From an uncultured Latescibacterota bacterium (GTDB lineage Bacteria > Latescibacterota > UBA2968 > UBA8231), in assembly GCA_958295495.1 (NCBI GenBank), contig OY282352.1, positions 682,001-746,000 of the forward strand: a DNA stretch of 64,000 bases, read 5' to 3'. Shown piece by piece: positions 14,565-31,109 of the stretch. A model generated the notes under the pieces. It was not told where the DNA came from. It saw only the letters and a program-made list of their open reading frames with translations, and did not search any database. A program made the position numbers and the translations under genes. Numbering within the stretch: position 1 is the stretch's first letter; every line of letters starts with the position of its first letter.

Positions 14565-14574
14565 GGACGTAGGT

Positions 14575-16548
14575 ATGAAGATCGCTAATAAAATCGCATG
14601 CATCCTCCTCGCGGGGATAATGGTAGGGCCAACGTACGGAGCGGCAAGTTGGCAACTAAAGACATCTGGCTATGCAACTTCCAAGGTAAAGTATTCGATT
14701 TTCGGCGAAGGCTTGGAAGAGCACCAAGGATACTACTTTCCCGAATACTTGCCCGCAGACCAAGTGCTGCATATCGGGTTCAGGCCTATTCGCTTCCAGA
14801 ACATGTCCGCCTTGGCCGAAGTGCTCGGTGCGAAAAATAAAAAAATCCACGCTTGGAAAACCGAATTTGAGTCTCCTATCAGGTGTTTAGATCAGGTCAC
14901 GTTCTTGTATCGCCGCATATATACTAGAGATGTAAGTGAATACACCATTTACCTCCAATCCAGTCGGACAGAACAATGGTACAGAAGAAAGATAAAAATC
15001 CCTTCTGAAGGGTATCAGATTCCCTCATACGATGTGATTTCGCTCTGGGAACCGTTGATAAACGATGGCACCAGAGAGGGAGCTTGTTTTTTGGATGCGC
15101 TCAATGATTCCGATAAAATTGGCCAATTGGTGATCGTGGTGACTCCTGCGGACACAGACTTCGATTTCGTTATCGGCGACTTGCGAATAGTGGATCGGGA
15201 AATCGGCCATCGAGATTTCCATCATCCTTTTTTTGACCCGATTTTGAGCGAAAACTCCGCCCAGCACATCGAAAAAGATCCCTTTTACGGTGCCCCAGGT
15301 ATCCCCGCCCTGCTCCTTCCCATCAGTTGGTATTCCATGCGCGGGAATTACGGGCCAATTTTCCACTTTGACCCAGGGCCTCGAGAAGTGGATGCTAGAG
15401 ACATCAGGGACCTAAAAGTCAAAGTTATCAAGCGAATATTAGACCTGTATCCATTCTATGAAGAACAAGGATTGGATAGGAAAAGTATACTGAACCGGTT
15501 CGCCTCTATCGAAAATTACGGGCTAGAGAGGGAGGCTTTCGAGGACAGTGTCAGTGCCTTATTTGCAGGTTTTCAAGATGCCCATCTAGCTGTAATAAAA
15601 AAGAAGCGGGGCAGATGCGCTTTTAGCCATCCATTAGCACTGTATAATATCGGCAGCAGAGTCTACGTGGCCGCGGTGTTTGACTCCTTGCTCGCGGACG
15701 AGATAGAGGTGGGTATGGAGGTACTCGAATTTAATGGGGCACCAGTGATTGAAGCGATAGATAGGCAAAGCGAGCGTTACAGAGGCAGTAGCAAAATAAA
15801 AAAGAGAAAAGCAACGAGAGACCTGCTCACATGTAGGCGAGACGAACGGGTAAAATTGAAAGTCTTATCTGTTTACGGATCCGTTGAAGACGTCCTAATT
15901 GAAGACAGAAAAGTACGGATTCCGCCGGACTTCGTGCCGCGACACGGAGAATTCAGGATAGACGAAAATGGGATAGCGTATTTTCGCATTCGCCAATGGA
16001 CCTATGACGTGTGGATTCGGTTTCTGAATCATGCGGATGAGCTCGAAAGCGCGAAAGGGCTGATCATCGATTTGAGATCCAATGGTGGGGGGGATGGCAG
16101 CACCGTTCTTAGGATGGTGTCGGCGTTCATAGACGAGAACGTGCTATGTGGGAATGAGTACTGTCCCGCTGATGGCAGGATCGAGAGCTTGGTTATAAGA
16201 CCCAACGACAAATTTCATTTCGATCTGCCCGTCGTCATCCTAGCAAATGAGGCGACTGCCTGTGCAAGCGAGAACTTCATCGATATAATGAGATATACCA
16301 ATCGGGCCACCATGGTTGCGGATAGTCACACACAGGGCCTTTTCTCGTCTAGGATCGAGCTGGTATTCCCGGATGGGATGAGAGTCTATACCAATAGCTT
16401 ATCCAAACCGTTGAGCCCCAACGGTTCTTCATATGAAGTGAAGGGGCTCGAACCAGATATCTGGATACATTTGAATACCGTTGATGACTTAGCGCATCGC
16501 GAGGACAAGATGCTTCGGACCGCTAAGCACCTGCTAGAAGCGCACTAG
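14575..16548 (+). CDS. Secreted S41-family (C-terminal processing) peptidase homologue, atypical active site
   Basis: 657 residues from the chosen ATG, which gives a clean signal peptide (MKIANKIACILLAGIMVGPTYG). The long N-terminal half is unassigned. The C-terminal S41 domain shows 'GLIIDLRSNGGGDGSTVL' (oxyanion-region motif), 'VVILANEATACASENFIDIM' and 'MVADSHTQGLFSSRIEL'. In S41 enzymes the nucleophile sits at the third position of 'T-x-S-A-[SA]-E', which is Cys here, and the usual 'GK' lysine is replaced ('QGLFS'). It may be a cysteine variant or non-catalytic. The position, 53 bp before the precursor gene and in the same direction, suggests a role in leader removal, immunity or processing outside the cytoplasm. 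Base composition is visibly AT-richer than the upstream genes. Confidence 0.8.
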   Translation: MKIANKIACILLAGIMVGPTYGAASWQLKTSGYATSKVKYSIFGEGLEEHQGYYFPEYLPADQVLHIGFRPIRFQNMSALAEVLGAKNKKIHAWKTEFESPIRCLDQVTFLYRRIYTRDVSEYTIYLQSSRTEQWYRRKIKIPSEGYQIPSYDVISLWEPLINDGTREGACFLDALNDSDKIGQLVIVVTPADTDFDFVIGDLRIVDREIGHRDFHHPFFDPILSENSAQHIEKDPFYGAPGIPALLLPISWYSMRGNYGPIFHFDPGPREVDARDIRDLKVKVIKRILDLYPFYEEQGLDRKSILNRFASIENYGLEREAFEDSVSALFAGFQDAHLAVIKKKRGRCAFSHPLALYNIGSRVYVAAVFDSLLADEIEVGMEVLEFNGAPVIEAIDRQSERYRGSSKIKKRKATRDLLTCRRDERVKLKVLSVYGSVEDVLIEDRKVRIPPDFVPRHGEFRIDENGIAYFRIRQWTYDVWIRFLNHADELESAKGLIIDLRSNGGGDGSTVLRMVSAFIDENVLCGNEYCPADGRIESLVIRPNDKFHFDLPVVILANEATACASENFIDIMRYTNRATMVADSHTQGLFSSRIELVFPDGMRVYTNSLSKPLSPNGSSYEVKGLEPDIWIHLNTVDDLAHREDKMLRTAKHLLEAH

Positions 16549-16601
16549 AAACCATAGACACGTTTTTGGAAGACGACAAACTGTAAGAAAGGAGGAACGC
16601 C

Positions 16602-16760
16602 ATGAAAGAACTCGTTAAGCCCAACCTGACCGAGGAGGAGTACGAAGAAAAGGAGAACGTCACGGGCTACTGCGACCATGATGGATGCTCCAAGATTTGC
16701 TTCCTTGGCAATTGCAGTCCTGTTTCGGGTGATGACGACTCTGGGGACATTCTGTTCTAA
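16602..16760 (+). CDS. Cys-rich RiPP precursor peptide (52 aa, Clo7bot/CLI_3235-like)
   Basis: Short gene with a very strong ribosome site (AAAGGAGG, 5-6 bases before ATG). The leader begins MKELVKPNLTEEEYEE; an 'LVKPN'-type start followed by acidic residues recalls the leaders of clostridial Clo7bot/CLI_3235 peptides (from memory). The putative core follows 'NVTG' and holds Cys24, Cys29, Cys33 and Cys38 with the pattern YC-x4-C-x3-C-x4-C, then an acidic tail 'SGDDDSGDILF'. There is no Arg anywhere. It lies between a secreted protease homologue and a SPASM radical SAM enzyme, the classic position for a substrate. The Cys residues could become thioether or other crosslinks, or disulfides after export; which residues are modified is unknown. 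Confidence 0.85.
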   Translation: MKELVKPNLTEEEYEEKENVTGYCDHDGCSKICFLGNCSPVSGDDDSGDILF

Positions 16761-16761
16761 T

Positions 16762-16846
16762 TGCCAATTGTCCAATAGAGGCATGAATAACGGTCGCATT
16801 CCTTGGTGGCCGCTGTGATTTATGGCGCTTCAAAGGACAATTCGCA
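16762..16846 (+). other. Putative long-range stem-loop between precursor and maturase genes
   Basis: tgccaattgtcc (16762-16773) pairs with ggacaattcgca (16835-16846) over 11 of 12 positions, directly after the precursor stop codon. No T-run follows. It could protect the precursor mRNA or attenuate read-through to the maturase, as expected when much more precursor than enzyme is needed (inference). Confidence 0.4.
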
Positions 16847-16945
16847 TAAGACACGTCCCATTCGATTCATCTTGATCGTTTGACACCCTAGCTAGTTTTT
16901 CGATCAGTTTGTCGTCTTCCATATCCCTTAAGAAAGGTGAATGAG

Positions 16946-18427
16946 ATGTTTAAATTGAGCTATTATACCTTTATCATCCCAATAACGGAGAAGGGGGTGT
17001 ATCTCGCCTATAATTCATTTACCAATGCGTTGCTAGAATTGGAGGAACATGAAGGCGAGCAGATGCTGGAGTGGAGCAAGAAGGATGCCATTCCGTCTTC
17101 GGAACTCGACAGTGAGGCAAAGCGCTTTATAAACGCTTTGCTCGACAACCACTTTCTGGTAGACGAGGGAGTTGACGAGAAAGAGCGGTTACATCGCCGC
17201 ATTTCCACCCAGAAAGAACGGTTCTGGAGAGAGCCAGCGGCCATGGTGCTCACGATATTACCGACTATCTCATGCAATATGGGTTGTTCCTATTGCTTTG
17301 AGGGGCACAAGCCGTTCGGCAAGGTCATGAGTGATGAGGTGATGGACGATGTGGCCAAGTTCGTGGAGAGGGAACTCAAGCACAGTACTGTCGTCGATTC
17401 GTTCAAAGAAATATCCGTCCATTGGTACGGTGGGGAACCCCTCCTGCAACCGCAGGTCGTCGAGAGGCTCGCGAAAAGACTGTACCAGATCGCCGATGAA
17501 AACCAAATCCCCTATACTTCAATGATCATTACGAACGGAACCTATCTAACGGTTGATGTATGGGGTCTGTTAAAGGAAGCGAGAATTAATCGAGTACAGG
17601 TGACCCTCGATGGCCATAGGGAATCTCACAACAAGCAACGCCCCCTCACCTTGCCGATAGTTGGCCAAGACATAGAGGAGGGGAGCTATGATACCATATT
17701 GGAAAACCTGAAGTCTCTTCCGAAGGGAATGGCCTTGAATATCAGGATAAATTCGGATAGGACTATAATCAATTCCTTGGATGATCTCTTGGACGACCTA
17801 GAGAGAATCGGTCTGTGGCCGCAGCAGGCAGATCGTGTCAGTCTGACCCTCGCCCATAAGGAAACTCCTTATGAAGAGTCGGGGGTAGTAGACATCGAGT
17901 CTCAGTACTTGAGCCTCAAGCAGCAAACCAAGGCGCAGAAGCTATTTCAGGACATGAAGTTTAATCACTATAACAATTGGGCCGCCAAAAATAACAAGGG
18001 TATGGCTAGGAAGCGTCTTGCCTATCCTGAACCCGCGACGTTTATATGCGGGACCGCGTCTCTGCCCTATAGTTTTTCCGTAAGCTACGACGGGCACATT
18101 CACCAGTGTATGGAGCAAGTCAACGACCCCAAAGCTAAATCGCATTACATTGCCGATACTTACGATATCCAAGACCCCTTGCGGCAAATTTTCCTAGCAT
18201 GGGATAAATTTCGCCACCATCCGATGTGCACTGATTGCAAGGTACTGCCGATATGCAACATGGTTTGTCCTCACAAGGATCCGCCTGCAGCCTGCTGTGA
18301 TTGGAAGGTAGATCTTAAATCGCGGTTAAAGGAGCAGTATATCACGTCCATTGATACGCCCCACCTAATTGAGTCTTTCGATGAAGTGGAACGACAGAGG
18401 CAGAGAGATTTCACCCTTGTGATATAG
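16946..18427 (+). CDS. SPASM-domain radical SAM peptide maturase (CcpM-like)
   Basis: 493 residues. The cluster motif 'SCNMGCSYCFEG' (Cys110, Cys114, Cys117) binds the [4Fe-4S] cluster that cleaves S-adenosylmethionine; 'WYGGEPLL' and 'MIITNGTYLT' are further core motifs. The C-terminal SPASM region supplies the auxiliary-cluster cysteines in 'FICGTASLPYSFSVS', 'HIHQCMEQV' and 'HPMCTDCKVLPICNMVCPHK'. The first ~95 residues, before the barrel, probably recognise the precursor leader. It most resembles the maturases of Cys-rich clostridial peptides (CcpM), judged from motifs and context only. It should install carbon-carbon or thioether crosslinks in the 16602 peptide. ATG 16946 is preferred over the in-frame GTG 16937 because AGAAAGGTGA lies just upstream. 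Confidence 0.9.
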   Translation: MFKLSYYTFIIPITEKGVYLAYNSFTNALLELEEHEGEQMLEWSKKDAIPSSELDSEAKRFINALLDNHFLVDEGVDEKERLHRRISTQKERFWREPAAMVLTILPTISCNMGCSYCFEGHKPFGKVMSDEVMDDVAKFVERELKHSTVVDSFKEISVHWYGGEPLLQPQVVERLAKRLYQIADENQIPYTSMIITNGTYLTVDVWGLLKEARINRVQVTLDGHRESHNKQRPLTLPIVGQDIEEGSYDTILENLKSLPKGMALNIRINSDRTIINSLDDLLDDLERIGLWPQQADRVSLTLAHKETPYEESGVVDIESQYLSLKQQTKAQKLFQDMKFNHYNNWAAKNNKGMARKRLAYPEPATFICGTASLPYSFSVSYDGHIHQCMEQVNDPKAKSHYIADTYDIQDPLRQIFLAWDKFRHHPMCTDCKVLPICNMVCPHKDPPAACCDWKVDLKSRLKEQYITSIDTPHLIESFDEVERQRQRDFTLVI

Positions 18428-18587
18428 CGTCCCAATAGCTTCTATGGCTGCTATTGAGGACTGCATAATCAAAGTCCTAGTCTGATGGATAGTGGAGCAT
18501 GCTTGACGAACGCTTGTCACAGATGCTGTTGGGTCTGTAAGAAACCCTGATCTGGAACGAGCCTAACGCTTTAAAAGGAGGATTACT
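18428..18587 (+). other. Intergenic region with a short Cys-rich frame
   Basis: Holds a 21-codon frame (18485-18550) reading MDSGACLTNACHRCCWVCKK plus Pro, with five Cys. It has no leader-like sequence and no ribosome site, and a stop lies 9 codons upstream in frame. Probably chance, but the Cys spacing in a peptide cluster is noted. The ribosome site of the next gene (aaaaggagg) lies at the right end. Confidence 0.3.
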
Positions 18588-19328
18588 ATGCATCGCATTA
18601 GCCGAAATTCAGACAAATCGCTCTTAGTTACAGCTAGAGAACCCGATTTTGATCTTGACGCTTTTTCCCGACGCAAGTTCCTTCGCTTAGGAGCCATGAC
18701 CACGACAGTAATGACGATCTTGCCGATTGCTCTGTTTACTCAAGAAGCAAAGGCAGGTTCTATATTATTTCCTTGGATTGCATGGACTGGTAGACAGGCT
18801 TTCGCCGCTGGAATTAGTTGGCTTGTCAACCGCGTCCTTGATAAGATATTTCTTGAAGACGACCCTAAGATCGCTGATAGGCTCGATGTGCGGAGTATAA
18901 CTCCAAGGCCAACGGGGGATAGCTTCCACGACTCCCACGCTGATCCTTATGCCGTGATGAACTCGCATTACCACTTTGATGCAGAGTATTCGAGCGAATT
19001 TGAATACTATGTTGAGCTAAGTGCCTATCTCCGTTTCGACAAAGCTAATCCAATAGCGGATTCCAAGGATTTGTCGACTTTGGAAATCAAGCGACTTGCA
19101 AAAGAAGTGAAGTATTACAGGACAATCCTTTTCCCTTGTGGGCTACGGGAACGCCCGTCTAAAGACCATCGTGATGGTTACCACAGCACCTGCACTGAGT
19201 ATAACGTCCATCCCGATCTCTTGGAACTTGAGTATGTACGTCCTTTCAATGATGGACGCGATTTATATTCAGCCTACGGAGTTAAGATCATAAAAACTGG
19301 AGAAAAGGATCTTCTCATTTCAGTATAA
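18588..19328 (+). CDS. Tat-signal hypothetical protein (246 aa)
   Basis: Strong ribosome site (AAAAGGAGG). The N-terminus carries a twin-arginine signal: 'FSRRKFLRLGA' at about residue 25, followed by the hydrophobic 'MTTTVMTILPIALF' and a possible cleavage after 'EAKAG'. A second hydrophobic, possibly amphipathic stretch follows ('WTGRQAFAAGISWLVN'). The rest is polar with His/Tyr-rich segments ('SHYHFDAEYSSEFEYYVEL') and two Cys (in 'LFPCGLRE' and 'YHSTCTEYN'). I recognise no family. Tat export suggests it folds, perhaps with a cofactor, before leaving the cytoplasm. It lies inside the peptide island and in its direction, so an immunity, receptor or late-processing role is possible but unsupported. 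Confidence 0.7.
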   Translation: MHRISRNSDKSLLVTAREPDFDLDAFSRRKFLRLGAMTTTVMTILPIALFTQEAKAGSILFPWIAWTGRQAFAAGISWLVNRVLDKIFLEDDPKIADRLDVRSITPRPTGDSFHDSHADPYAVMNSHYHFDAEYSSEFEYYVELSAYLRFDKANPIADSKDLSTLEIKRLAKEVKYYRTILFPCGLRERPSKDHRDGYHSTCTEYNVHPDLLELEYVRPFNDGRDLYSAYGVKIIKTGEKDLLISV

Positions 19329-19403
19329 GAGCCTCTATCAAAACGTCTTGCCGGTGTCGAGTTCGACAGCGGTTGACAACTATTTGTAGGAGACGAGGCA
19401 TTG

Positions 19404-19446
19404 AGAGCGCGGATGTCCTGTCCGCAGGCTCGGGAAGCAGGCGTCT
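19404..19446. repeat. REP-like palindromic element, copy 1
   Basis: agagcgcggatgtcctgtcc then gcaggctcgggaagcaggcgtct. Ends pair (agagcgc / gcgtct) and an inner cgga...tccg pair exists. Related copies lie at 28930 and 29297. It sits in the gap between the Tat protein and the subtilisin fusion. Confidence 0.7.
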
Positions 19447-19523
19447 AGGTTTTGATAGGCACTCTTAATCGAAACGAAGGAAGTTCGCTTTGGGCGATAC
19501 TTCTTTTATTTCCCTTTAGACCA

Positions 19524-21422
19524 ATGAGAATAGCAATCGTAGACAGCGGCATAGATGTGGGGCACAAGCGTCTCAAGGATTGTGCGTGTAGCGGCGTTTC
19601 GCTGCGGTGTGATGGAGAGAACGAACTCACCCTCACCAACGAATACGGCGACAGCCTCGGTCATGGGACCGCCTGTGCGAGCCTCGTGCATAAGGTAGAC
19701 CCGCAGGCGGAAATAGTGGCAGTGAAAATATTCCACTGTGATCTATCTGCCAAAGAGGGGTTGCTCAGTGAGAGCATCAGATGGTGTTTGGACAACGACA
19801 TCAACATCATCAACCTGTCCCTCGGCATCCAGACGGATAGTCCCTCGCAAGCCCTGATTGGCCTTCTCGAAGAGGCATTTGAAAAAAACGTCGTCGTCGT
19901 CTCGGCGGCGCATAACGACTTGAGGCTGGAATGTTACCCGGCGCATTTCCACACTGTGTTCGGTGTGACATGGGGAAAGGTGGACCATCACCGCTTATAT
20001 GGTTATCTGCCCGGCTCGCCCATCGAATTTATCGCCAAGGGAACGATACAGCGGGTCGCATGGAAAGATGGGGGATATTCCATATTGAGCGGGACGAGTA
20101 TGGCATGTGCCTATTTCACCGGCATAACGGCGGGCGTATTAAGGCAGAGCCCGTCAATGTCGGTCAGAGAACTCAGGAGTCACCTGATCGGGAACGCGGA
20201 TGCGACTATTCGGGCGTTGCAACTAGGCAGCAACATCCAGGGGGCCTTCCCGAGGATCATCAGCGGCGATCTGGACAAGGCGGGACGGAGGCTATTCCGC
20301 CAGGGGGAAAAGATGGATTGGCTGGGGAACCTAGCGCTTTTCCCGGCCAGCGAAAAGGAGATGAGCGGCTTTGTCGAGTTTCCCGGCTATTGTACGCAAA
20401 AGATAGCCAAGTACATTGACTATCCGAGAAACATGAAGATGCCGCACCAAAACGGCAGAGGCAAAAGCGCTTCTATCAAAATATACGACAAGATGCTGGA
20501 CACGGCGGATTGCGGAGACTTCGACACGATGGTCTTGGGGTATTTTTACGATCAACTCTTTGAAGCGAATATCCGGTTCGGTAACGACTTGCTGGACGTA
20601 TGCATGAAGGCCCAAAAGAACCTCTACGTATATGACTCTAGGTTAAAGGCCCATATCGAGTGCTTGAACGGGGATGTAGAGCCTTTGTTTCGGCTGTATA
20701 TGCCGGAAGTCAGCAGCCGGCTGCACGACCGCGTCATGCAGTTTCGTCATCTGCCCAAGGTGCGAGTGCCCGTCATGGCGGTGATGGGCACGAGCAACCG
20801 ACAGGGGAAGTTCACCGCGCAACTCCGTCTCAAATACATCCTCAAAAGAGAGGGGTACAAGGTCGGCCATGTCTCCACCGAGCCCCAAGGTGAGTTGTTC
20901 GGAGCGGATTTCAGCTTTCCCTACGGGTACAACGGGACGGTTTCAATCGGCCGCGAAAAGTGGTCGATGTTTCTCCGCACCTTGCTCAAAGGCGTCCAAG
21001 AATACAACGATCCCCATATCATCCTAACCGGGACGCAAGGCATGACGGTTCCCCGAGTACGCAACCAAGCCCCGCTGGGCAACGAATGCGATAGCTTGGA
21101 ATTCATGTACGGCGTTCAGCCCGATGCGTTAGTTTGCGCCATAAATCCCCAAGATCCTATTGAGCTGGTCGTCAACGTGTGCCAAGCGGCCCGGATATTT
21201 TGCGGGGCGAAACCGTTGTTCTTCATAATGACTCCCTGGATGAGAGACTACATGCGGGCTAGCAACGGCCGAAGAATAAGCCGACACCGATACCTGAATA
21301 AGGACGAGATGGCGGAGAAAATGGACCATTTCCAAGAGGAATTGCAAAAGCCGGTCATCGATATCATGGATGTGAACAACGACGGGCTCATCTTAGACGC
21401 CATCCAGGATTTCTTTTCGTGA
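19524..21422 (+). CDS. Subtilisin-family protease fused to P-loop peptide-maturation domain (632 aa)
   Basis: Residues 1-~210 form a compact S8 peptidase with the full triad: D7 in 'AIVDSGID', H47 in 'LGHGTACASL', S192 in 'ILSGTSMACAYFTG', and oxyanion N131 ('SAAHND'). No signal peptide or propeptide precedes it, so it acts in the cytoplasm. After a linker region (~240-400), residues ~415-600 form a P-loop domain with 'MGTSNRQGKFTAQLRLKYIL' (G422-K429, GxxxxxGK type), 'STEPQGELFGAD' and 'GVQPDALVCAINPQDPIE'. This resembles DUF1611 and the clostridial peptide-maturation protein TIGR04066 (from memory). The fusion ties a leader or follower protease to a nucleotide-dependent partner. ATG 19524 is chosen because catalytic Asp7 requires a start here; upstream in-frame codons lack a ribosome site and look non-coding. 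Confidence 0.87.
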   Translation: MRIAIVDSGIDVGHKRLKDCACSGVSLRCDGENELTLTNEYGDSLGHGTACASLVHKVDPQAEIVAVKIFHCDLSAKEGLLSESIRWCLDNDINIINLSLGIQTDSPSQALIGLLEEAFEKNVVVVSAAHNDLRLECYPAHFHTVFGVTWGKVDHHRLYGYLPGSPIEFIAKGTIQRVAWKDGGYSILSGTSMACAYFTGITAGVLRQSPSMSVRELRSHLIGNADATIRALQLGSNIQGAFPRIISGDLDKAGRRLFRQGEKMDWLGNLALFPASEKEMSGFVEFPGYCTQKIAKYIDYPRNMKMPHQNGRGKSASIKIYDKMLDTADCGDFDTMVLGYFYDQLFEANIRFGNDLLDVCMKAQKNLYVYDSRLKAHIECLNGDVEPLFRLYMPEVSSRLHDRVMQFRHLPKVRVPVMAVMGTSNRQGKFTAQLRLKYILKREGYKVGHVSTEPQGELFGADFSFPYGYNGTVSIGREKWSMFLRTLLKGVQEYNDPHIILTGTQGMTVPRVRNQAPLGNECDSLEFMYGVQPDALVCAINPQDPIELVVNVCQAARIFCGAKPLFFIMTPWMRDYMRASNGRRISRHRYLNKDEMAEKMDHFQEELQKPVIDIMDVNNDGLILDAIQDFFS

Positions 21423-21442
21423 ACGGGCATAAGGACTGCACC

Positions 21443-21736
21443 ATGCGAGGAGACATCAAGAAACGACTGTACGAGTTGATAGAGACTTTTGGGGACCAAC
21501 CGCTCGACTTTTCTGTCGAGGGCGACGTACGGCGGATGCTCCATATCATCTTGAGCGAGTCCATGCAGGCGATGGAATTCGTCATCGCCCTTGAGGAAGA
21601 ATTCGAAATCGAGTTCGACGACGAAGACATCTCCATTGAATTCTTCCTCGACCTGGATCATATCGTCCTATCCGTGCTGAAGGGGCTGGAGCAGAAGGAG
21701 GCGGATGACCTAGTACAACCAAGTGCCGTCATCTAA
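21443..21736 (+). CDS. Acyl-carrier-like peptide maturation protein (97 aa)
   Basis: Small acidic helical protein with the carrier-protein pattern 'SESMQAMEFVIALEEEFEIE' followed by 'FDDEDISIEFF'. Aligned with true carriers ('DSLDxVELVMALEEEFxIEI'), S40 sits at the phosphopantetheine site, although the normal 'DSL' is 'ESM'. Clostridial Cys-rich peptide loci carry an 'acyl carrier-related' protein (TIGR04069, from memory) that this resembles. It may carry an acyl group for the BtrH-like protein at 27865, or may only use the fold as a protein partner. ATG 21443 has AAGGA upstream; an in-frame GTG at 21419 overlaps the preceding stop and is the alternative. Confidence 0.8.
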   Translation: MRGDIKKRLYELIETFGDQPLDFSVEGDVRRMLHIILSESMQAMEFVIALEEEFEIEFDDEDISIEFFLDLDHIVLSVLKGLEQKEADDLVQPSAVI

Positions 21737-21747
21737 AGAGGCTTGCC

Positions 21748-23148
21748 ATGTTCAAGACCATTCTGTTCAAGGAAATCAAGGGGCACTTAGGCACAGTGAC
21801 GTTCATTGTATGGCTTAGCGTCTCGTGCTTTCTGGTATGGATGGTCTTAGAGAGCGGCTATTCAAGATATGAGCAAAAGCATCAGCACTACCTCGATATA
21901 GGAAGGGAAACCAAAGACGGCTCTAGCAAAGAATACAATCCTTTTATGCCGGACGAGGAGCAATTCCGGGTGCTGCGCGAGCCGTCCATATTGAGCACTA
22001 TCGTCTACGGACTAGAAGGCGAGATGCCGGTCTATATGACCATCACCCCCAACGGCGTCCGGTCTGGGTCGGTGGGCACAGGAGAGTCCGTATTGAGCCT
22101 ATTCGGGGAGCTGGATTTTCTCTTGGTCATCGAGTTGGTGCTCGGGCTGATGGCCGTCGTGCAGGCGTCCAGTCTGATATCTTCGGAAGGGGAAAACGGC
22201 ACCCTGAAGCTGATATTAGCCAACCCGGTCTCGCGCAGTACCGTCTTGCTGGGCAAGGGGTTGGGCGGATACGTTATCGTCGCCTTTGTCTTTGTATTTT
22301 CCACCTTTATCGGGCTTTTGTTTCTGTCGATCAGGGGATTTCCGCTCTTTGACTCGGCGGTGCTCGCGCCGATAGTCTTGATTTTGGTGGGGAGTCTGGT
22401 CTATCTGCTGGTCACCTTTCTGGTGGGGTTGTTCTGTTCCATCCTGTTCCTCAATTCCCAAGTGGCCTTGGTGCTGAGCGTCTCGGTCTGGGCCGCGATG
22501 TCTTTGCTCTTGCCTAAAAGCGCCTGGACGGCGGCGGAGTTGCTCCGCCCGGTAGAAGATGAACGGACCGTTTACTTGCGTCAAAAGCATGCCCGTGAAG
22601 ACCATTTAAGGGCTCAGCACGAGGAAATGAACAAGCATTACCCCCAGCAGTTAGATGATACGGAATGGTTCATGGCCAACTTCGCCAACCTGTCGGAGGA
22701 AGGCGCGGCGGTTTGGTCAAAGTACAGCGACCGGATATCCAAAGACTTGGCCACCATCGCCGAGGGCCATCACCGGGAGAAGCAAGAACAGGAGTCCCTC
22801 GGTAAGGTACTGTGCCGGGCATCCCCTGCGGGCAGTCTCCGACTGCTGTTGGCCAATGTGTCCGGTACGGGCGACCAGATGAGGTGGCGGTTCTTGCAGG
22901 CGGCTTGGAACTACCAAAATGCGGTCAATGACAACGTTTTTGTAAAAAAGCCCGTGCTCGCTATCCAGAATAGGAGTTGGGTCCATGATATGGGTGCAGA
23001 GGACCCGCCGCCCCCGCCTCTAATCAAGGCACTGTCCTTCGGCAGTGTCTTAACAGAATCAGCGCTAGACATAGCCTTATTATCCGTCTATGCCGTCTTG
23101 CTCTTCATGCTGGCCTATATGCTTTTCATGCGTCGCTCCATAGTGTAA
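21748..23148 (+). CDS. ABC-2-type transporter permease (466 aa)
   Basis: Integral membrane protein with one N-terminal helix (about 15-35), an outer segment, a middle group of helices ('LDFLLVIELVLGLMAVVQAS', 'VIVAFVFVFSTFIGLLFLSI', 'VLILVGSLVYLLVTFLVGLF', 'ALVLSVSVWAAMSLLLP'), a soluble loop of about 150 residues, and a last helix ending 'YMLFMRRSIV'. 'SSEGENGTLKLILANPVSRS' is the typical cytoplasmic coupling element of the ABC-2/NosY group. No stand-alone ATPase gene is adjacent, which is unusual for this class. It may borrow an ATPase from elsewhere. A role in peptide export or immunity is likely from its place between the carrier-like and UPF0489 genes. Confidence 0.85.
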   Translation: MFKTILFKEIKGHLGTVTFIVWLSVSCFLVWMVLESGYSRYEQKHQHYLDIGRETKDGSSKEYNPFMPDEEQFRVLREPSILSTIVYGLEGEMPVYMTITPNGVRSGSVGTGESVLSLFGELDFLLVIELVLGLMAVVQASSLISSEGENGTLKLILANPVSRSTVLLGKGLGGYVIVAFVFVFSTFIGLLFLSIRGFPLFDSAVLAPIVLILVGSLVYLLVTFLVGLFCSILFLNSQVALVLSVSVWAAMSLLLPKSAWTAAELLRPVEDERTVYLRQKHAREDHLRAQHEEMNKHYPQQLDDTEWFMANFANLSEEGAAVWSKYSDRISKDLATIAEGHHREKQEQESLGKVLCRASPAGSLRLLLANVSGTGDQMRWRFLQAAWNYQNAVNDNVFVKKPVLAIQNRSWVHDMGAEDPPPPPLIKALSFGSVLTESALDIALLSVYAVLLFMLAYMLFMRRSIV

Positions 23149-23186
23149 CCCACCGACCCCCGAAATAACAGCAAAGGATGGATGTC

Positions 23187-24092
23187 ATGGTAAAAACCGT
23201 AGTCGTCGAAGAGCATAACGAAGCTTTTTTTCTTTGGCATTGGGCGAAAAATCAGGGCCTTATTCCCAGCAGGGACAATTACCTGCTGCACATTGACGAG
23301 CACGCGGACATGTCTGCGCCCAGACTCCGCCAGTCTATCAAGGATCTGAACGGTGATTTCATCGATGTTGTAGACTTCACCTACCGCGAGTTATCCATTT
23401 CCTCGTTTATAATCCCCGCGGTGTACCAAGGCCTCATAAACGAGATATACTGGGCCAAGCAAAATCATAAGGGGAGCGAAAAAAAAGAAAGAGTAGAATT
23501 CGTTCGCTCCTACAACAGCCAAGGCAAATTTATGATCAGAATGCCGTGCAAGGGAGAAGAAGATGTAGAGAAAATTTCGACAATTGAGGACGACGATAGG
23601 AAACAGCTCAATATCTATTTGGGTGCGGAAGAGGATATTCCGGAGCAGCGGGAGGTACTTCTGGACATTGACCTAGATTACTTTTCGGCTATTGAGCACC
23701 CGAGTGAATACCAGAGCCTGCGGATCGCGATCACACGGGAGGAGTACGAGCGATTCATAAGCGACAAGTACCATTCCCTGAGATTCGTCGGTCCAAGGTT
23801 CGAGGCTAAGGAAGCAGACGGTCAATTTTACTATGAAATCAACGAAACCGACGAGATATATGCAGCCAAGCTCAAAATCGACGAAGGCTCGATCGCGGTC
23901 AGGGTCCAAGAACTGATCGATTCGCTCAAGGCAAAGGATATCCAGCCGCAACTGATCAGCTTATGCCGATCAAAGATCAGCGGGTACACACCAGAAGACC
24001 AATGCGAGTTTATCCAAGAACTACTGGTGAACGGCTTGGACAGAATTTACGATATGGACATCTGCCACGTTGAGGATATCCTGAAGGGATAG
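23187..24092 (+). CDS. UPF0489-family protein (peptide-arginase-like metalloenzyme)
   Basis: 301 residues. Acidic/His motifs of an arginase/deacetylase-like metal site are present: 'LLHIDEHADM' (H35, D37, H39, D41) near the N-terminus, 'LLDIDLDYFS' (D160, D162, D164) in the middle and 'LISLCRSKISGYTPEDQ' near the C-terminus, the order known for UPF0489. A family member, OspR of the landornamide pathway, removes the guanidine group of Arg in a precursor to give ornithine (established, from memory). The precursor found here contains no Arg, so the substrate or reaction must differ, or another substrate exists. ATG 23187 is preferred over ATG 23178 because AGGATGG lies 8 bases upstream. Confidence 0.8.
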   Translation: MVKTVVVEEHNEAFFLWHWAKNQGLIPSRDNYLLHIDEHADMSAPRLRQSIKDLNGDFIDVVDFTYRELSISSFIIPAVYQGLINEIYWAKQNHKGSEKKERVEFVRSYNSQGKFMIRMPCKGEEDVEKISTIEDDDRKQLNIYLGAEEDIPEQREVLLDIDLDYFSAIEHPSEYQSLRIAITREEYERFISDKYHSLRFVGPRFEAKEADGQFYYEINETDEIYAAKLKIDEGSIAVRVQELIDSLKAKDIQPQLISLCRSKISGYTPEDQCEFIQELLVNGLDRIYDMDICHVEDILKG

Positions 24093-24168
24093 GCGCGGCC
24101 GTTCCTGTCCCATTGCGTGAGGACGAGGTGAGAGTGTATGAAACGCGCGCCCTGACTCGGAAACCAGA

Positions 24169-25890
24169 ATGATGCTCAGAACCACACTAAAGCGAATCGG
24201 ATTATACCGGGCGATTATGGCCAACGGACTGTATATACTGCTCCTGTGTCTTATCGCCGCTGCAGTCGTGGCCTTGACCATAGCTAAGCCCATCGTGTTT
24301 TCTAGGATAATAGACGAGGGAATTCTCAGTGAGGATTGGGGGGTGGTCCAGTCGCACTGTATCTACTTCCTCATAATCGCATTGGGTTTGAGCCTGTTCG
24401 GGTTGGGTCATGTCCTAGTCGCGTCAATCATATACAACAAAATATCCCTGATAATCAAAGAGGTGATCTTAGACCGAATCTCCCTCTTGGACGCCGAATT
24501 CTTCCATACGAACAAGACGGGAGACGTGATCACCAAGCTGGACAACGACGTATCGAGCATCCAGACGTACATCATGTCGGTCCTGAACACCTCCATGAGC
24601 AATTTCCTGAGCTTTCTAGGGGCGATGATCTATATCGGCTACGTGCAATGGAGGATGTTGGTCGTCGGGTTCTTGGTGACCCCGTTCGTGGGATTGGCCA
24701 TTTATGCCTTTCGCAATGTGTTATACTCCAAGGACAAGAAGGCTCGAGAACTGAAATCCGACGTAAATGACGCGATAATAAACGCCTTCGACAATCAGCT
24801 TTACCTGAGGAAGGTCGGATTGGACTTGAGAGCACTGTCGAAATGCAAAACGACCTTGGATCAGTATCGGATCGCGTCCATATTCAACGATGTATGGCGC
24901 GGCGGCAGCGGGTCGCTAAACAAGCTCCTGCTTGCCGTGGGCTATATCGTTACAATTGGCTACGGGTCGTGGCTAGTCTTCGAGGGCATGCTGAGCATCG
25001 GCAATCTTTTTGCGTTTCTCACGTTGCGCACCATGTTCCTAGCCCCGTTGTCGTTTTTCGAGGAGATTTACAGAGGGTACTTTTCGACTAAATCCGCGTT
25101 CAAGCGCTTGGACGATTTCTTCTGCCACCAGATCGAGGAGGGTTTGGATCGCACGGACAACTCGAAACCCGAATCGATCGAGACGATCTGTTTGAGCAAC
25201 GTATCGTTCTCCTACCCAAGGCAAGACCGTCTCCTGAACCGCATTGACGCGCAATTCGGCAAGGGTTGGAACGTCTTAGGGGGTAGGAACGGTGTTGGTA
25301 AATCGTCGTTGATCGACCTGCTCATGAAAATTTCGTCCCCGAGTAAAGGTCGCATCCTAATCGACGGCGTGGATATCGCCCCGATCAACAATCGGTCTTG
25401 GCGGTCCAACATCAGTGCCATGCCACAAACCACGTATCTGTTCAAAGGGTCGTTGAGGGAGAATATCCGTCTGTACGACGAGCGGGTAACCGATGATCGC
25501 ATTCAGTTCGTGCTAAACAACTTGGGCTTCGATTTTGATGCCGAAGACTTGCCAGCAGGACTTGATACGAATATCGCGGAGGGCGGGAGCAACTTTTCCG
25601 GTGGCCAGAGCCAGAAAATCGCGATCGCCAGAGCCGTCGTCAAAGATACTCCTATCTACATTTTCGATGAACCCCTGTCTAATCTGGATGTGCGTTCGCG
25701 CGGTCTGGCCTTAGCGTACTTAAAAAATGCACTCAAAGGCAAGATCGTTTTAATCGTTTCACATGATGATATAGGTGAATACACAGACCGGGAGTACGAA
25801 ATAGAAGACGGGACCATCGTGGCCACCGCCGCAAACGGGTTCGAGCGTGTTCCAAAGGATGGTTCCAACACTTTGCATCTATCGGTTTGA
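24169..25890 (+). CDS. ABC exporter with fused membrane and ATPase domains (573 aa)
   Basis: Half-transporter of the MsbA/LagD fold but without an N-terminal C39 peptidase. Six helices lie within residues ~20-300. The ATPase domain has Walker A 'GGRNGVGKSSLIDLL' (371-379), signature 'FSGGQSQKIAIARAV', Walker B 'IYIFDEPLSNLD' and H-loop 'VLIVSHDD'. It should act as a homodimer and export the matured peptide. Lack of a C39 domain means cleavage must be done elsewhere, which fits the subtilisin fusion at 19524. The next gene follows by 38 bp. The second codon is also ATG (24172). Confidence 0.92.
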   Translation: MMLRTTLKRIGLYRAIMANGLYILLLCLIAAAVVALTIAKPIVFSRIIDEGILSEDWGVVQSHCIYFLIIALGLSLFGLGHVLVASIIYNKISLIIKEVILDRISLLDAEFFHTNKTGDVITKLDNDVSSIQTYIMSVLNTSMSNFLSFLGAMIYIGYVQWRMLVVGFLVTPFVGLAIYAFRNVLYSKDKKARELKSDVNDAIINAFDNQLYLRKVGLDLRALSKCKTTLDQYRIASIFNDVWRGGSGSLNKLLLAVGYIVTIGYGSWLVFEGMLSIGNLFAFLTLRTMFLAPLSFFEEIYRGYFSTKSAFKRLDDFFCHQIEEGLDRTDNSKPESIETICLSNVSFSYPRQDRLLNRIDAQFGKGWNVLGGRNGVGKSSLIDLLMKISSPSKGRILIDGVDIAPINNRSWRSNISAMPQTTYLFKGSLRENIRLYDERVTDDRIQFVLNNLGFDFDAEDLPAGLDTNIAEGGSNFSGGQSQKIAIARAVVKDTPIYIFDEPLSNLDVRSRGLALAYLKNALKGKIVLIVSHDDIGEYTDREYEIEDGTIVATAANGFERVPKDGSNTLHLSV

Positions 25891-25928
25891 CCGCAAACGA
25901 CGCCAAAGAACATCTAGGAGATCCGCTT

Positions 25929-26999
25929 ATGGCAGAGCTTGCCGTTTTTCAGAATATAAACCGGGAGATCACGGAGAGGCTGAGAGGTCTCGACGGTATA
26001 AACATCGACGATATCTGGCAATTGAATCAAGCATTTCCAGATATCGCGACTGAAGTGTTGCAGAACGCGGCCCTCAATGGCGATACAGATGTAGCGGAGA
26101 TTGTGGACTGGGTCTGCGGGCAAGACAGCCTGACCAGTCAGAGGACACTTGAGTTGGCATTTGGACAGCCGGCTTTGTGCCTATATAAAGCCGCCCACTT
26201 TTACCTCGAGCTTTTATTTTGGTTCCCTAGCCGGACCGCAATCCATTCGCATAATTTCACCGGTGCATTCCGTGTGCTTCAGGGTTGCTCGCTCCAGATC
26301 GAGTACGATTACCGAGTCGAGGAAGAAGTCTGCCGTCACGTCTATTCCGGCGACCTACGCCCAAGGCACATTGATCTGCTGTCGCCTAGTGACGTGTATG
26401 CCATACGGAGACATGATGCTTTAGTCCATACAGTGGCCCACATGGGCAATCCCTCTCTCACCCTAGTCGCCCGGACGTACTCGGCGAGCAAGACCGTTCC
26501 CCAACTCAACTATTATCGCAACGGCTTGGCGATCGACACTTTCCGTAACCAAATATCGCTGCACCGACAAGCGATGGCACTTGAGGCGCTGTCCAAAGCG
26601 GGACACCCCGACTTTCGGACTCTCTTGCTTCAGTTCCTCCAGCGCGGAGATTTCAATAGGTATTTCCAGACCGTAATGAATCTATCCCACCTCATCAACC
26701 AAGAACTGAAAGAGGAGATTCTGGCGGTCACAGACCCGCTATGGGGGACTTACGGCGAACAGGTCTTCGAGGTTTTGGAGGACAACAGACGGACGAAACA
26801 GTTTTGGGCTAGCGTACCGCGTTTTTCCGACCCCCGAAAACACCTCGACTTAGCCCTTACAGAACTGTTCCGCTCACGGGAAGATCTGATCTGGCTTATG
26901 GAAGCTTGTTATCCCGGCAGGGAAAGCGAATCGCTGTTTGAGGAATGGGGAAAAAAAATGGAACTGTCCTTCGCATCAGGTTTCTGTCGAGCCGTTTGA
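25929..26999 (+). CDS. Cupin-like (cysteine-dioxygenase-type) protein, possible C-terminal frameshift
   Basis: 356 residues. The cupin half-motifs are 'IHSHNFTGAFRVLQG' (H106, H108) and, about 80 residues on, 'LVHTVAHMGNPSLTLVAR'. They resemble the metal-binding beta-barrel of cysteine-dioxygenase-like proteins, with Glu of motif 1 replaced. The C-terminal half is helical and unassigned. It might oxidise Cys or a cofactor of the peptide pathway (inference). ATG 25929 is chosen for the ideal ribosome site (AGGAG, 8 bases upstream). Near the end, an eight-A run (26951-26958) precedes 'MELSFASGFCRAV'. A shift at that run would instead give 'WNCPSHQVSVEPFEFYFKLD' and about 20 more residues, which looks more protein-like, so slippage or a sequence error is possible. 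Confidence 0.7.
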   Translation: MAELAVFQNINREITERLRGLDGINIDDIWQLNQAFPDIATEVLQNAALNGDTDVAEIVDWVCGQDSLTSQRTLELAFGQPALCLYKAAHFYLELLFWFPSRTAIHSHNFTGAFRVLQGCSLQIEYDYRVEEEVCRHVYSGDLRPRHIDLLSPSDVYAIRRHDALVHTVAHMGNPSLTLVARTYSASKTVPQLNYYRNGLAIDTFRNQISLHRQAMALEALSKAGHPDFRTLLLQFLQRGDFNRYFQTVMNLSHLINQELKEEILAVTDPLWGTYGEQVFEVLEDNRRTKQFWASVPRFSDPRKHLDLALTELFRSREDLIWLMEACYPGRESESLFEEWGKKMELSFASGFCRAV

Positions 27000-27238
27000 G
27001 TTCTACTTCAAATTGGATTGGCCAGCAATCTTGGGGAAGGGAGAAGGCGAGACGGTTACATCTTGGCCATGCTCTATACGCTAAAAGGGAGCGACAAACG
27101 TGCCTTCTATTGCGGATTAGTCCGCGAGGCCGCCCTTTATTTGTACAAAGGGTCGTTGCGGGAGAACATCTACTGTCGGACAAAGAATTACGAGAACATG
27201 CCAATCGAAACCTGTCGATTTCAAATATGTAACCAATT
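27000..27238 (+). other. Intergenic region, possible decayed coding sequence
   Basis: About 240 bases without an acceptable gene. The first ~85 bases may be the frame-shifted end of the upstream gene. A short stretch near 27140-27170 encodes 'LYKGSLRENI', close to 'LFKGSLRENI' of the 24169 ABC exporter, and may be a fragment of a second exporter gene or chance. Confidence 0.4.
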
Positions 27239-27868
27239 ATGCTAGACCCTTACAAGCTGGACCTATCGCCTCATCTCAACAATGCCGGCATCGCCTCGGC
27301 TGGACACCGGACCACTGACGGCCTCGACGGGTTGGGCACGACCTTCTGCGTCGAGAGCCTCCCGGCCTCGGGGACGACCATCACCTGCCAGGGAACGCCG
27401 TTTATCTTTCCCGATAAAGGCGATGGCCTAAACGACAACATCGCCTGCGAGGCCCAAGAAATTGCGCTGCCCATAGGAACCTATCGCGCTCTCCACATTC
27501 TGGGCATGTGCGACTGGCGGGCCTTTGAGGAGCCCCTCCGACTAAAAGCTCTCAATGGCACCTACATAGAAACACCCCTCGGGCTCAGCGACGCCTCGCA
27601 CTATCAGGGACTCCAATACGGCGAACACGAGGCCTTGGCCTGTCCGTTGGTCACCCCCGATAGCCTCATTCCCCATGTGGTCCTCTTTGGCATTGACCTA
27701 CCGGATGCCGGCTATGAGATGATGGAAACCCGCATGGACGCTGGAATTTGGCATCAGGTGATTCCCGTAGAGCCACCTCGACCACTTGTGGGCCTCGTGC
27801 TGCCGGATAATCCATCCATGCATCTGTTCGCTTTGACCGTAATCGCGACCGATGAGGCGTCTCTATGA
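27239..27868 (+). CDS. Hypothetical beta-sandwich (jelly-roll-like) protein (209 aa)
   Basis: Cytoplasmic-looking protein starting 'MLDPYKLDLSPHLNNAGIAS'. The phrases 'LSPHLNNAGIAS', 'FIFPDKGDGLNDNIACEAQE' and 'ALPIGTYRALHILGMCDW' recall the jelly-roll module often found at the N-terminus or between domains of glycoside hydrolases ('HFNNDGIS ... PFxFP ... DNV ... LPxGxYxxLHLL'). As a stand-alone protein it may bind a sugar or a peptide part. No catalytic motif is visible. The ribosome site is weak. It overlaps the next gene by 4 bp (ATGA), so the two are translationally coupled and probably act together. Confidence 0.65.
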   Translation: MLDPYKLDLSPHLNNAGIASAGHRTTDGLDGLGTTFCVESLPASGTTITCQGTPFIFPDKGDGLNDNIACEAQEIALPIGTYRALHILGMCDWRAFEEPLRLKALNGTYIETPLGLSDASHYQGLQYGEHEALACPLVTPDSLIPHVVLFGIDLPDAGYEMMETRMDAGIWHQVIPVEPPRPLVGLVLPDNPSMHLFALTVIATDEASL

Positions 27869-28863
27869 AAAAGCTCATTGACGGCATCCCCTTCTGCACC
27901 AACCGGCACTACAACTGCGTCTACGTAGTGTTGGATAGCTTGTTGCGCTTCTATGGCTACGAACCCACCGTGCTCTGTTTTCCCCACTGGGATTTTATCT
28001 ACCTCAAAGACGAGCCGTCTGCCATCCAAGGCCGGAAAATCCCCCTTCCCAAGATACTCAACGCCTTTGGTATCTCACTATTCAACCACAGCGCGAATGA
28101 GGGACCAAGCGCGTGGAATACAGTAAAAAAGTTAATAGATACAGACACCCCTGTGGCCGTCAGCGTAGACGTGTTTCCGCTGGCTCAGGCCGACCTATTT
28201 CCCCGTCAGCACCATGCAGACCACCAGTATATCGCCGCCGGGTACGACGATGAGGCGGCTACTGTCTACCTAGTTGATCCCTCGCCTTGGCAGCCTTCCG
28301 CACGAAGTATCCCACTCAATCTGTTCCTCACCAGTTGGGACACGAGCGCGATTCTTGGGGGGGGACAGGATCGATACAACTGGACTTGGCTGAAGGTGCC
28401 GGCTCAGCGTCGTACTTTAAATCCTCGACAGGTGTCTGCTATCTTGCAGCGCAATCTCAAAAGCATGTCGGCCTCCAGCGACCAAACACATCTCTTCGTG
28501 GGCCTGAAAGGGATTGAGCAACTCGCCGAGGCTACTAGGGTCTGGGCGGGATACGAAAAGCCGCTCCTCAAAGTACACCTGAGGCGATATGGGAAGCAAC
28601 TCTTAGAGATCGCCTTGATCCGCGAAGGCCATGGCCACTTTCTTCGCCATATCAGTCCGGTCTGCGACCACCCGGGTTTGGTGTCCCTAGGTCGGGAATT
28701 CGGGGTGATTTCTCAAAGCTGGTTTGTGGCGAAAAACTTGTGCTTCAAAGGCGCGGTTAAAGAAACGGCCAGCGTAGTGCCTCGCATTCAGGCCCGGCTC
28801 CGCGAAATCGCCGCCCGGGAACGGACAGCCTTGGCAACCCTAACAGAAATGATGGGCCTGTAG
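27865..28863 (+). CDS. BtrH-like acyltransferase (butirosin biosynthesis H N-domain type, 332 aa)
   Basis: Starts with a papain-like segment: Cys18 in 'HYNCVYVVLDSLL', His120 in 'HHADHQYIAAGYDDE' and Asp138 in 'VYLVDPSPW', the layout of BtrH and related C39-like proteins. In the butirosin pathway BtrH transfers an acyl chain from an acyl-carrier protein to an aminoglycoside (established, from memory). The helical C-terminal half (about 180-332) corresponds to the usual partner domain. With a carrier-like protein at 21443 in the same run, acyl transfer to the peptide or a linked sugar is a plausible role (inference). It is the last intact gene of the island; a REP-like palindrome and gene fragments follow. 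Confidence 0.75.
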   Translation: MKKLIDGIPFCTNRHYNCVYVVLDSLLRFYGYEPTVLCFPHWDFIYLKDEPSAIQGRKIPLPKILNAFGISLFNHSANEGPSAWNTVKKLIDTDTPVAVSVDVFPLAQADLFPRQHHADHQYIAAGYDDEAATVYLVDPSPWQPSARSIPLNLFLTSWDTSAILGGGQDRYNWTWLKVPAQRRTLNPRQVSAILQRNLKSMSASSDQTHLFVGLKGIEQLAEATRVWAGYEKPLLKVHLRRYGKQLLEIALIREGHGHFLRHISPVCDHPGLVSLGREFGVISQSWFVAKNLCFKGAVKETASVVPRIQARLREIAARERTALATLTEMMGL

Positions 28864-28929
28864 ACGAGTTGGTCCCCGACTACTAGACAAATCCCCTTCA
28901 CCTCGGGATAGTAAACCTCTAGGAGCTTG

Positions 28930-28967
28930 GGAACGCGGATATCGCAGGCTCGAAAAGCAGGCGTTCC
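28930..28967. repeat. REP-like palindromic element, copy 2
   Basis: ggaacgcggatatcgcaggc then tcgaaaagcaggcgttcc; the ends (ggaacgc / gcgttcc) pair perfectly over 7 bp. Almost identical to the element at 29297 and related to 19404. Confidence 0.8.
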
Positions 28968-28973
28968 GTTTTT

Positions 28974-29112
28974 CATTCACGTCCACCCCAACGGCCGCTT
29001 CTTCTACGGGTCCAACCGCGGCCACGATTCCATTGCCGTCTATGCCATCGACCAAGACACCGGCCAGCTCACGCCTACCGGCCACAAGGCCGAAGTCGGC
29101 ACACCCGTGTGC
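28974..29112 (+). pseudogene. Fragment of a lactonase (6-phosphogluconolactonase-like) gene
   Basis: An open stretch encodes '[20 protein letters not shown]' followed by '[19 protein letters not shown]'. This is the typical repeated blade of the seven-bladed lactonase family ('[18 protein letters not shown]'). Only about 45 residues of a ~350-residue protein remain, with no start, directly abutting the REP-like element on the left and the ECF-gene repeat on the right. Confidence 0.75.
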
Positions 29113-29128
29113 CACAAGTTCATTCCGG

Positions 29129-29290
29129 TTTTTTAATTTTGCCTCCGCTGGACGTCTTTATTTATAGAAGGGTTGAATACCTATGGATGACTTCACACTT
29201 CGTCGAGTGCTGCCTAACAGGCAACGCGCAAACCTTTGAGCCGCTCGTCCGGCACTACCAGAACGCGGCCTTTGCCACGGCCTTAGGCTA
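29129..29290 (+). pseudogene. Direct repeat, copy 2: truncated, frameshifted start of the ECF sigma gene
   Basis: Copy of 12669-12840. It keeps the upstream sequence, the ATG and codons for 'NAQTFEPLVRHYQNAAFATA', but lost 8 bases just after the start (frameshift) and stops matching after about 40 codons, where a REP-like element begins. It cannot encode a sigma factor. With copy 1 it brackets the 12.7-29.1 kb segment. Confidence 0.9.
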
Positions 29291-29296
29291 CGCTTG

Positions 29297-29334
29297 GGAG
29301 CGCGGATATCGCAGGCTCGAAAAGCAGGCGTTCC
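29297..29334. repeat. REP-like palindromic element, copy 3
   Basis: ggagcgcggatatcgcaggc then tcgaaaagcaggcgttcc; one base differs from the 28930 copy (G-T pair in the stem). It is followed by 'gtttttgatagg', as is the 19404 copy (ggttttgatagg), so the repeat unit may extend beyond the palindrome. Confidence 0.8.
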
Positions 29335-29385
29335 GTTTTTGATAGGTATTTGAAGAGGCCCTAACCCAACGGAAGGAGGACGCAC

Positions 29386-29520: not shown

Positions 29521-29526
29521 GGTACC

Positions 29527-29928: not shown

Positions 29929-29968
29929 ACCTCACTGCCTATCCCCACCTAAATAAGGAGACTATGTC

Positions 29969-31060: not shown

Positions 31061-31109
31061 CAGAGCCCAGGGCCGACCGCCGTTGAAGAAGATGGTTCTT
31101 TGCTGATTA

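Follow-up and report, generated by a model that had tools for sequence, protein, structure and literature searches.

A predicted gene cluster for a ribosomally synthesized and post-translationally modified peptide (RiPP) occupies positions 14575-28863 of the window, by which we mean the whole 64,000-nucleotide stretch of contig OY282352.1 and not the cluster alone. It comprises 12 genes, all on the plus strand (Table 1). We favor, with somewhat better than even confidence, an interpretation in which the cluster belongs to the DD(I/V)LF type of the flm and ohk clusters, was likely transferred, and carries a peptide arginase that is likely left without a target because the sole precursor peptide found contains no arginine. 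The gene content, the motifs, the absence of arginine, an extra segment of 22 kb and the co-occurrence patterns were read from the sequences themselves, and the chemistry attached to them is predicted.

The DD(I/V)LF type with a peptide arginase is already described (PMC12703449, 2025); that study names this precursor type, counts 57 such precursors beside 30 arginases, and gives the products as not yet known. Three features are new: (i) an arginase accompanying an arginine-free precursor, (ii) a co-occurrence of a P-loop domain with the carrier protein serine, and (iii) a branch-wise split between BtrH-type and JmjC tailoring genes. The first offers a natural setting in which to ask whether a genome-encoded lysine can replace an enzyme-made ornithine, and the window tests the rule that arginase genes mark arginine-bearing precursors. 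The other two suggest testable roles for little-characterized genes, also in the CLI_3235 clusters of Firmicutes.

Precursor peptide and family placement

The precursor reads MKELVKP...YCDHDGCSKICFLGNCSPVSGDDDSGDILF, with no arginine among its 52 residues. Lying behind AGAAAGGAGGAA, it is the only small open reading frame (ORF) with at least two cysteines in 14500-29000 that has a seven-base ribosome-site match. The site is strong, and the Cys-rich precursor proposed by an earlier, sequence-only reading of this DNA is confirmed. The tail, DDDSGDILF, contains DILF preceded by G instead of D; the ends seen in flm precursors are EDILF, NDILF, SDILF, and DDILF. Against the FlmA model NF052472 the precursor scored 15.0 bits, under the cut-off of 30; comparison scores were 20.9 for P0122, 17.2 for the L007 precursor, 74.1 for one flm precursor, and 50.4 for one ohk precursor. 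The match to the Clo7bot model TIGR04333 was weak (16.4 bits, cut-off 31). The nearest known precursor, P0122 (63% identity by BLAST), shares its leader and tail, and its arginine aligns with Lys31 of the window precursor in a short, gapped alignment.

Among NCBIfam models, the radical S-adenosylmethionine (SAM) enzyme fits FlmE/OhkG (NF052473) best, under the cut-off (Table 1), followed by TIGR04463 (209 bits) and the Clo7bot model TIGR04334 (197, cut-off 600); TIGR04068 gave 86.1 (cut-off 500). With NF052473, the genuine enzymes of flm and ohk reach 809 and 773, and those of the Gemmatimonadetes-labelled locus L007 and the Latescibacterota-labelled locus L003 reach 404 and 374. Its gene begins with the ATG at 16946. 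The C-x3-C-x2-C motif is invariant in 27 aligned rows, and the closest relatives among the matches listed (P0001-P0006) are 83-89% identical. Two of these come from contigs of 4,846,116 and 822,211 bases, and none of the best 120 of 131 arginase matches is on a contig of either length; as the window's own arginase is absent from these 120 too, the arginases of such contigs may be hidden likewise, and nothing is concluded from this. In a 29-row tree, which held no Clo7bot or CLI_3235 rows, the window enzyme groups with L003, L007, L100, L101, and eight database proteins (support 97/99) in a clade separate from all Bacteroidota rows. Because the family cut-offs are missed and the tree position lies apart from Bacteroidota, the cluster is placed, as judged from sequence, as a peripheral branch within the DD(I/V)LF type, outside the named families.

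For comparison, a DD(I/V)LF set of 20 loci was assembled on the basis of precursor motif and gene content; 80 radical SAM loci yielded L003-L017, L020, L051, and L075, and a separate search added L100 and L101. Five loci lie outside Bacteroidota (the window, L003, L007, L100, and L101) and 16 within; L005, L014, and L051 are contigs of 5.7-11.7 kb. The recurring set across these relatives consists of the S41 peptidase (19 of the 20 loci, the exception being L005), precursor, radical SAM enzyme, subtilisin (often fused to the P-loop domain), carrier, and exporter of the ATP-binding cassette (ABC) type. The Bacteroidales locus L075 (4171-13622) contains five DD(I/V)LF precursors and no arginase; its radical SAM enzyme is about equally near FlmE/OhkG (236 bits) and Clo7bot (198), which makes L075 a possible link between the two types.

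The sequence-only reading had described a Clo7bot-like pathway with a gene set familiar from Clostridium. A Clo7bot or CLI_3235 (TIGR04065-TIGR04069) pathway moved from Firmicutes would account for the leader motif shared with Clo7bot-like loci, for the weak TIGR04333 match, and for the P-loop, carrier, subtilase, and exporter set shared with CLI_3235-type clusters, which in Paenibacillus and Roseburia hold TIGR04066, TIGR04069, subtilase, TIGR04068, and an ABC transporter together (PMC10731318, PMC4573289). However, every TIGR score is far under its cut-off: in the hidden Markov model (HMM) scan, TIGR04066 reached 55.6 bits out of the required 200, TIGR04068 stayed at the value given above, and TIGR04069 had no match among the cluster proteins. 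Moreover, among the relatives of the radical SAM enzyme whose genomes are labelled, the closest carry the labels Latescibacterota and Gemmatimonadetes and fall into the clade of the window. Such an origin, already disfavored, appears hardly credible to us. What stands of the earlier claim is the leader and the weak precursor match; the radical SAM enzyme sides with FlmE/OhkG (389 bits) over Clo7bot (197). The set of precursor, radical SAM, P-loop, and carrier genes is indeed known, from CLI_3235 and not from Clo7bot, as none of six Clo7bot-like loci (L023, L040, L042, L052, L062, and L071, picked via the MK-x-x-x-KP motif and not via the model) showed a P-loop or carrier match. The earlier reader saw a true resemblance and merged two distinct systems under one name.

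Arginase and precursor arginine

The UPF0489 gene had been counted among signs of undescribed chemistry. The family call holds above the Pfam cut-off, and the family is that of peptide arginases (PMC12703449). The protein matches OspR (8BRP; E 7e-64) and falls under the cut-off of the FlmR/OhkR model NF052474 (Table 1), as do those of L015 and L017. In its motifs DEHAD, EEHNEAF, and LDIDLDYFSA the metal-binding residues are all kept; a final C, which is no metal ligand, is replaced by A. FlmR and OhkR convert arginine to ornithine within the peptide and use free L-arginine weakly (PMC12703449).

In whole-genome searches, 11 of the 18 relatives proved to have an arginase; none was found in the L100 or the L101 genome. 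All 11 positive relatives (L004, L006, L008, L009, L012, L013, L014, L015, L016, L017, and L020) have at least one precursor with arginine in the core; the L014 arginase lies on another contig of its genome with a stop within the match, and the L017 precursor ends in DILV. Seven relatives have a precursor and no arginase; six of these lack core arginine, and L075 has it in one of five precursors. These counts exclude L005, in which a precursor was not found, and L051, whose small ORF lacks the DD(I/V)LF tail. Thus, the window is the sole locus without core arginine among 12 arginase-positive loci. We infer that its arginase has lost its target, and that lysine supplies the amine that would otherwise come from ornithine; the enzyme probably stays idle with this precursor because Lys31, in the place of the arginine, already gives a side-chain amine. 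In P0123, a close relative of the arginase (87%), the metal-binding DIDLDYF segment is missing.

Several observations weigh against an arginase without a target. The arginine rule reflects few independent events: of three contrasting tree pairs two agree and one shows no difference, the latter presumably containing the window. In this scoring, L075 was taken as having no arginine despite the one precursor that has it, and the contrasts were computed before the L017 precursor turned up. P0123 is a single predicted protein from a single contig of 4.3 kb and could result from misassembly, and the relatives P0124 and P0125 (74-75%) are full length. The frame and motifs of the window arginase are intact, which would be unusual in a mere remnant.

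The arginase may instead act on another target, be it a precursor that the profile misses, a different protein, or free arginine. The retained metal-binding motifs and the weak use of free arginine by FlmR and OhkR argue for this, as does a 21-residue ORF at 18485-18550, after the radical SAM gene and before the gene for a protein with an SRRKFL motif, which by-eye translation gives five cysteines and one arginine. However, two genome-wide searches, the later one with a six-row profile, found no second precursor (next-best matches at E about 0.9), and the 21-residue ORF lacks a leader motif as well as a ribosome site; it is perhaps a chance ORF or a worn second precursor. We regard another target as rather unlikely.

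An arginine truly present in the precursor, its absence being an assembly or strain oddity, is very improbable in our judgment. One assembly of the strain was seen, and the closest other precursor has arginine at the Lys31 position; yet the four relatives on the same branch (L003, L007, L100, and L101) have arginine-free cores as well, though without an arginase. The targetless arginase remains our preferred explanation.

Carrier serine and tailoring genes

In the subtilisin/P-loop fusion, D31, H71, S216, and G452-K453-x-T455 are invariant in 12 rows. A structure model of the fusion (predicted local distance difference test score, pLDDT, 82.5) shows a subtilisin fold; the best 50 of 1498 matches in a fold search were all subtilisin-type proteases, with the P-loop fold left unplaced, and a sequence search of the P-loop half against solved structures gave chance-like matches only. 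The SESM of the carrier sits in the column of the phosphopantetheine attachment site.

The serine is kept in all 13 loci in which the P-loop domain and the carrier are both present. The domain was not found in six loci: four, of the ohk kind, have a Ser-less carrier (L009, L012, L013, and L020), and in L004 and L016 the profiles detected neither domain nor carrier, so that both were scored as lacking the serine in the tree. L014, whose contig ends before the carrier, and L051, whose contig ends early, were excluded. In 62 further radical SAM loci, none of them belonging to the DD(I/V)LF set, neither profile gave a match. This pattern suggests that the P-loop domain works with the phosphopantetheine arm; against it, there are only three independent tree pairs, all agreeing (sign test p 0.25). 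Two loci contain a holo-acyl carrier protein synthase gene: in L008, the flm locus, it follows the carrier gene immediately (18426-18794), and in L005 it lies on the opposite strand, 3.7 kb from the carrier gene (10904-11296).

The BtrH-like gene noticed in the sequence-only reading is upheld by a BtrH_N match above the cut-off (Table 1). In each of the five non-Bacteroidota loci a BtrH_N-like gene stands next to the cluster; among 15 Bacteroidota genomes searched (the L051 genome was left out) BtrH_N occurs in six, always outside the cluster locus, L010 and L011 included. Of the 16 Bacteroidota loci, 12 showed a JmjC/Cupin_8 hydroxylase gene, the exceptions being L005, L014, L051, and L075; it was found in none of the five others. 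Among the paper titles listed in literature searches (the best 15 of 317 and 15 of 46), none names a BtrH-type enzyme in RiPP pathways, which is no proof of absence. A glycosyltransferase gene of the EryCIII/UDPGT-like kind lies inside the arginase-free cluster of L100 (15068-16246), and a relative of it inside that of L007 (16766-18016), likewise arginase-free; the products of these two clusters may be glycosylated.

BtrH of butirosin transfers an acyl group from a carrier to an aminoglycoside, and PapB and QhpD are known for thioether chemistry. On these analogies, the following steps can be proposed: (i) the radical SAM/SPASM enzyme would read the MK-x-L-x-KP leader and cross-link cysteines, the links being likely thioethers by kinship to PapB, Clo7bot, and QhpD, (ii) the subtilisin half of the fusion would remove the leader, (iii) the P-loop half, dependent on ATP, would act together with the carrier's phosphopantetheine arm, (iv) the BtrH-type acyltransferase would move a group from carrier to peptide, and (v) export and outside trimming would fall to the ABC exporter and to the S41 peptidase with its signal-like sequence. 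The arginase, as FlmR and OhkR, would make ornithine from arginine.

A more specific version, in which the fusion cuts the leader and, with ATP, attaches either a group or the released peptide to the carrier, the BtrH-type enzyme finishes the product, and a genome-encoded lysine has replaced ornithine and stranded the arginase, is offered only tentatively, as less likely than not. The following points weigh against the role given to the acyltransferase. The BtrH-like proteins of L003, L007, L100, and L101 are partial matches (23.7-28.7 bits, cut-off 29.7) and weakly resemble that of the window (22-34% over 47-262 residues, E 6e-5 to 1e-3). The core of the BtrH-bearing L101 has neither lysine nor arginine, which means that side chains of the Lys/Arg type cannot in general be what is acylated.

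Gene row, extra segment and known systems

The gene row of the sequence-only reading was confirmed on one strand, including the S41 peptidase, exporter, permease, and UPF0489 genes (Table 1). Its Tat (twin-arginine translocation) protein has the SRRKFL motif and stays below the cut-off of the TAT model, and no homologue of it was detected among the relatives. The names cupin-like and jelly-roll-like could not be maintained for two further proteins, as neither matches any Pfam or NCBIfam model; for the former, a single-sequence structure model was unusable (mean pLDDT 40.6). The fusion probably starts at the ATG at 19524.

Table 1. Coordinates of the predicted features in the window (aa, amino acids; nt, nucleotides)
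Feature	Position	Strand	Basis
22.2-kb segment absent from two genus mates, likely insertion	14565..36720	.	G001, G007 comparison
S41-family peptidase, N-terminal signal-like sequence (by eye)	14575..16548	+	Pfam PF03572 76.6 bits
Ribosome-binding site of the precursor (AGAAAGGAGGAA)	16586..16597	+	sequence
Precursor peptide, 52 aa, four Cys, zero Arg, GDILF tail	16602..16760	+	relatives P0122, L007 precursor
Radical SAM/SPASM peptide maturase, FlmE/OhkG-like	16946..18427	+	NF052473 389.4 bits, cut-off 500
Protein with Tat-like SRRKFL signal-like motif	18588..19328	+	TAT model 14.3 bits, cut-off 16.7
Subtilisin-like (QhpE-like) peptidase fused to TIGR04066/DUF1611-type P-loop domain	19452..21422	+	PF00082 72.3, PF07755 34.5, TIGR04066 55.6 bits (cut-off 200)
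Carrier protein, phosphopantetheine-type serine (SESMQAMEF)	21419..21736	+	PF00550 17.7 bits, cut-off 20.8
ABC-2 type permease	21748..23148	+	PF12679 76.3 bits
Predicted peptide arginase (UPF0489)	23178..24092	+	PF12640 63.3 bits, cut-off 27; NF052474 331.1, cut-off 350
ABC exporter, membrane and ATPase parts	24169..25890	+	PF00664 109.4, PF00005 90 bits
Protein without family match, earlier named cupin-like	25887..26999	+	no Pfam/NCBIfam model
Second ABC exporter gene, likely remnant	27138..27170	+	33 nt 88% identical to 25435-25467
Protein without family match, earlier named jelly-roll-like	27239..27868	+	no Pfam/NCBIfam model
BtrH-type acyltransferase, BtrH_N and DUF4872-like	27865..28863	+	PF14399 45.6 bits (cut-off 29.7), PF16169 26.4 (cut-off 28)

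The genome is Gram-negative and of the FCB kind; its rpoB has 62-63% identity to those of Zixibacteria-, FCB group- and Latescibacterota-labelled genomes and does not discriminate between phyla. In two genus mates, G001 and G007, the counterpart of the sigma-factor gene ending at 14564 is followed after 3 base pairs by the homologue of window position 36721. The gene for a MacB-type permease just past this junction (36734-39175) matches entirely in G001, and with its first 138 and last 62 bases alone in G007. In five of the seven genus mates searched the sigma gene was not found at the threshold used, and these are uninformative. The segment was inserted here or lost in both mates; insertion is the simpler explanation because the arginase and the radical SAM enzyme were not found in related genomes (only the window's own was observed, among 60 related genomes for the arginase and, at E 1e-60, among 64 genomes of the phylum for the radical SAM enzyme). 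The low G+C of the cluster fits insertion: it is 0.48-0.55, against 0.57-0.65 in the preceding 14 kb, and about 0.59-0.62 at 32-40 kb, with a second dip (0.52) at 39-42 kb. The sequence-only reading had noted a codon use AT-richer than that of the flanks, and the transfer of a RiPP pathway into a Gram-negative genome that it proposed is likely.

Several repeats and further genes were observed in and around the segment. The start and upstream region of the sigma-factor gene (12670-12836) is copied 16.5 kb downstream, within the segment, at 29130-29288 (89-95% identical). A 52-nucleotide repeat with near-palindromic parts lies at 28925-28976 and 29292-29343 and, more weakly, at 19405-19456 (copies 96% and 62% identical), and may be a dispersed repeat of the source genome. 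Transposase pieces within imperfect 29-nucleotide inverted repeats (31096-32032) are probably a worn insertion sequence. An outer-membrane efflux protein and two NPCBM_assoc proteins are encoded at 32061-36429, still within the segment and with the G+C of the flanks, possibly through a separate event.

The likely exporter remnant, the sigma-gene copy, and the transposase pieces would also be expected if the entire cluster were decaying and product-less. We find this improbable: the main genes are all open, catalytic motifs are intact in the radical SAM enzyme, the fusion, and the arginase, and the ribosome site of the precursor is strong.

This DD(I/V)LF-type cluster can be compared with known systems. 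With BtrH of butirosin it shares the BtrH_N domain, and the window's enzyme would act on a peptide. With Clo7bot (TIGR04333/TIGR04334) it shares the MK-x-x-x-KP leader, a Cys-rich core, and a distant radical SAM kinship; unlike the window, the six Clo7bot-like loci showed neither P-loop nor carrier by profile, and L052 has a subtilase. With OspR of landornamide it shares the peptide arginase family, whereas the OspR substrate is an NHLP-type precursor containing arginine (PMC12703449). As in the CLI_3235/CcpM system (e.g., the SacP23 cluster), radical SAM enzyme, P-loop, carrier, subtilase, and ABC transporter occur together; in the window, however, P-loop and subtilase are fused, arginase and BtrH are added, and HMM scores are far under cut-off. 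The cluster differs from the flm and ohk clusters in its arginine-free precursor with four cysteines, its BtrH-type acyltransferase, the lack of a JmjC hydroxylase, scores under the family cut-offs, and an organism outside Bacteroidota, and has in common with them the precursor leader and the DILF end of the tail, an FlmE/OhkG-like radical SAM enzyme, arginase, S41 peptidase, subtilisin, carrier, and exporter (PMC12703449).

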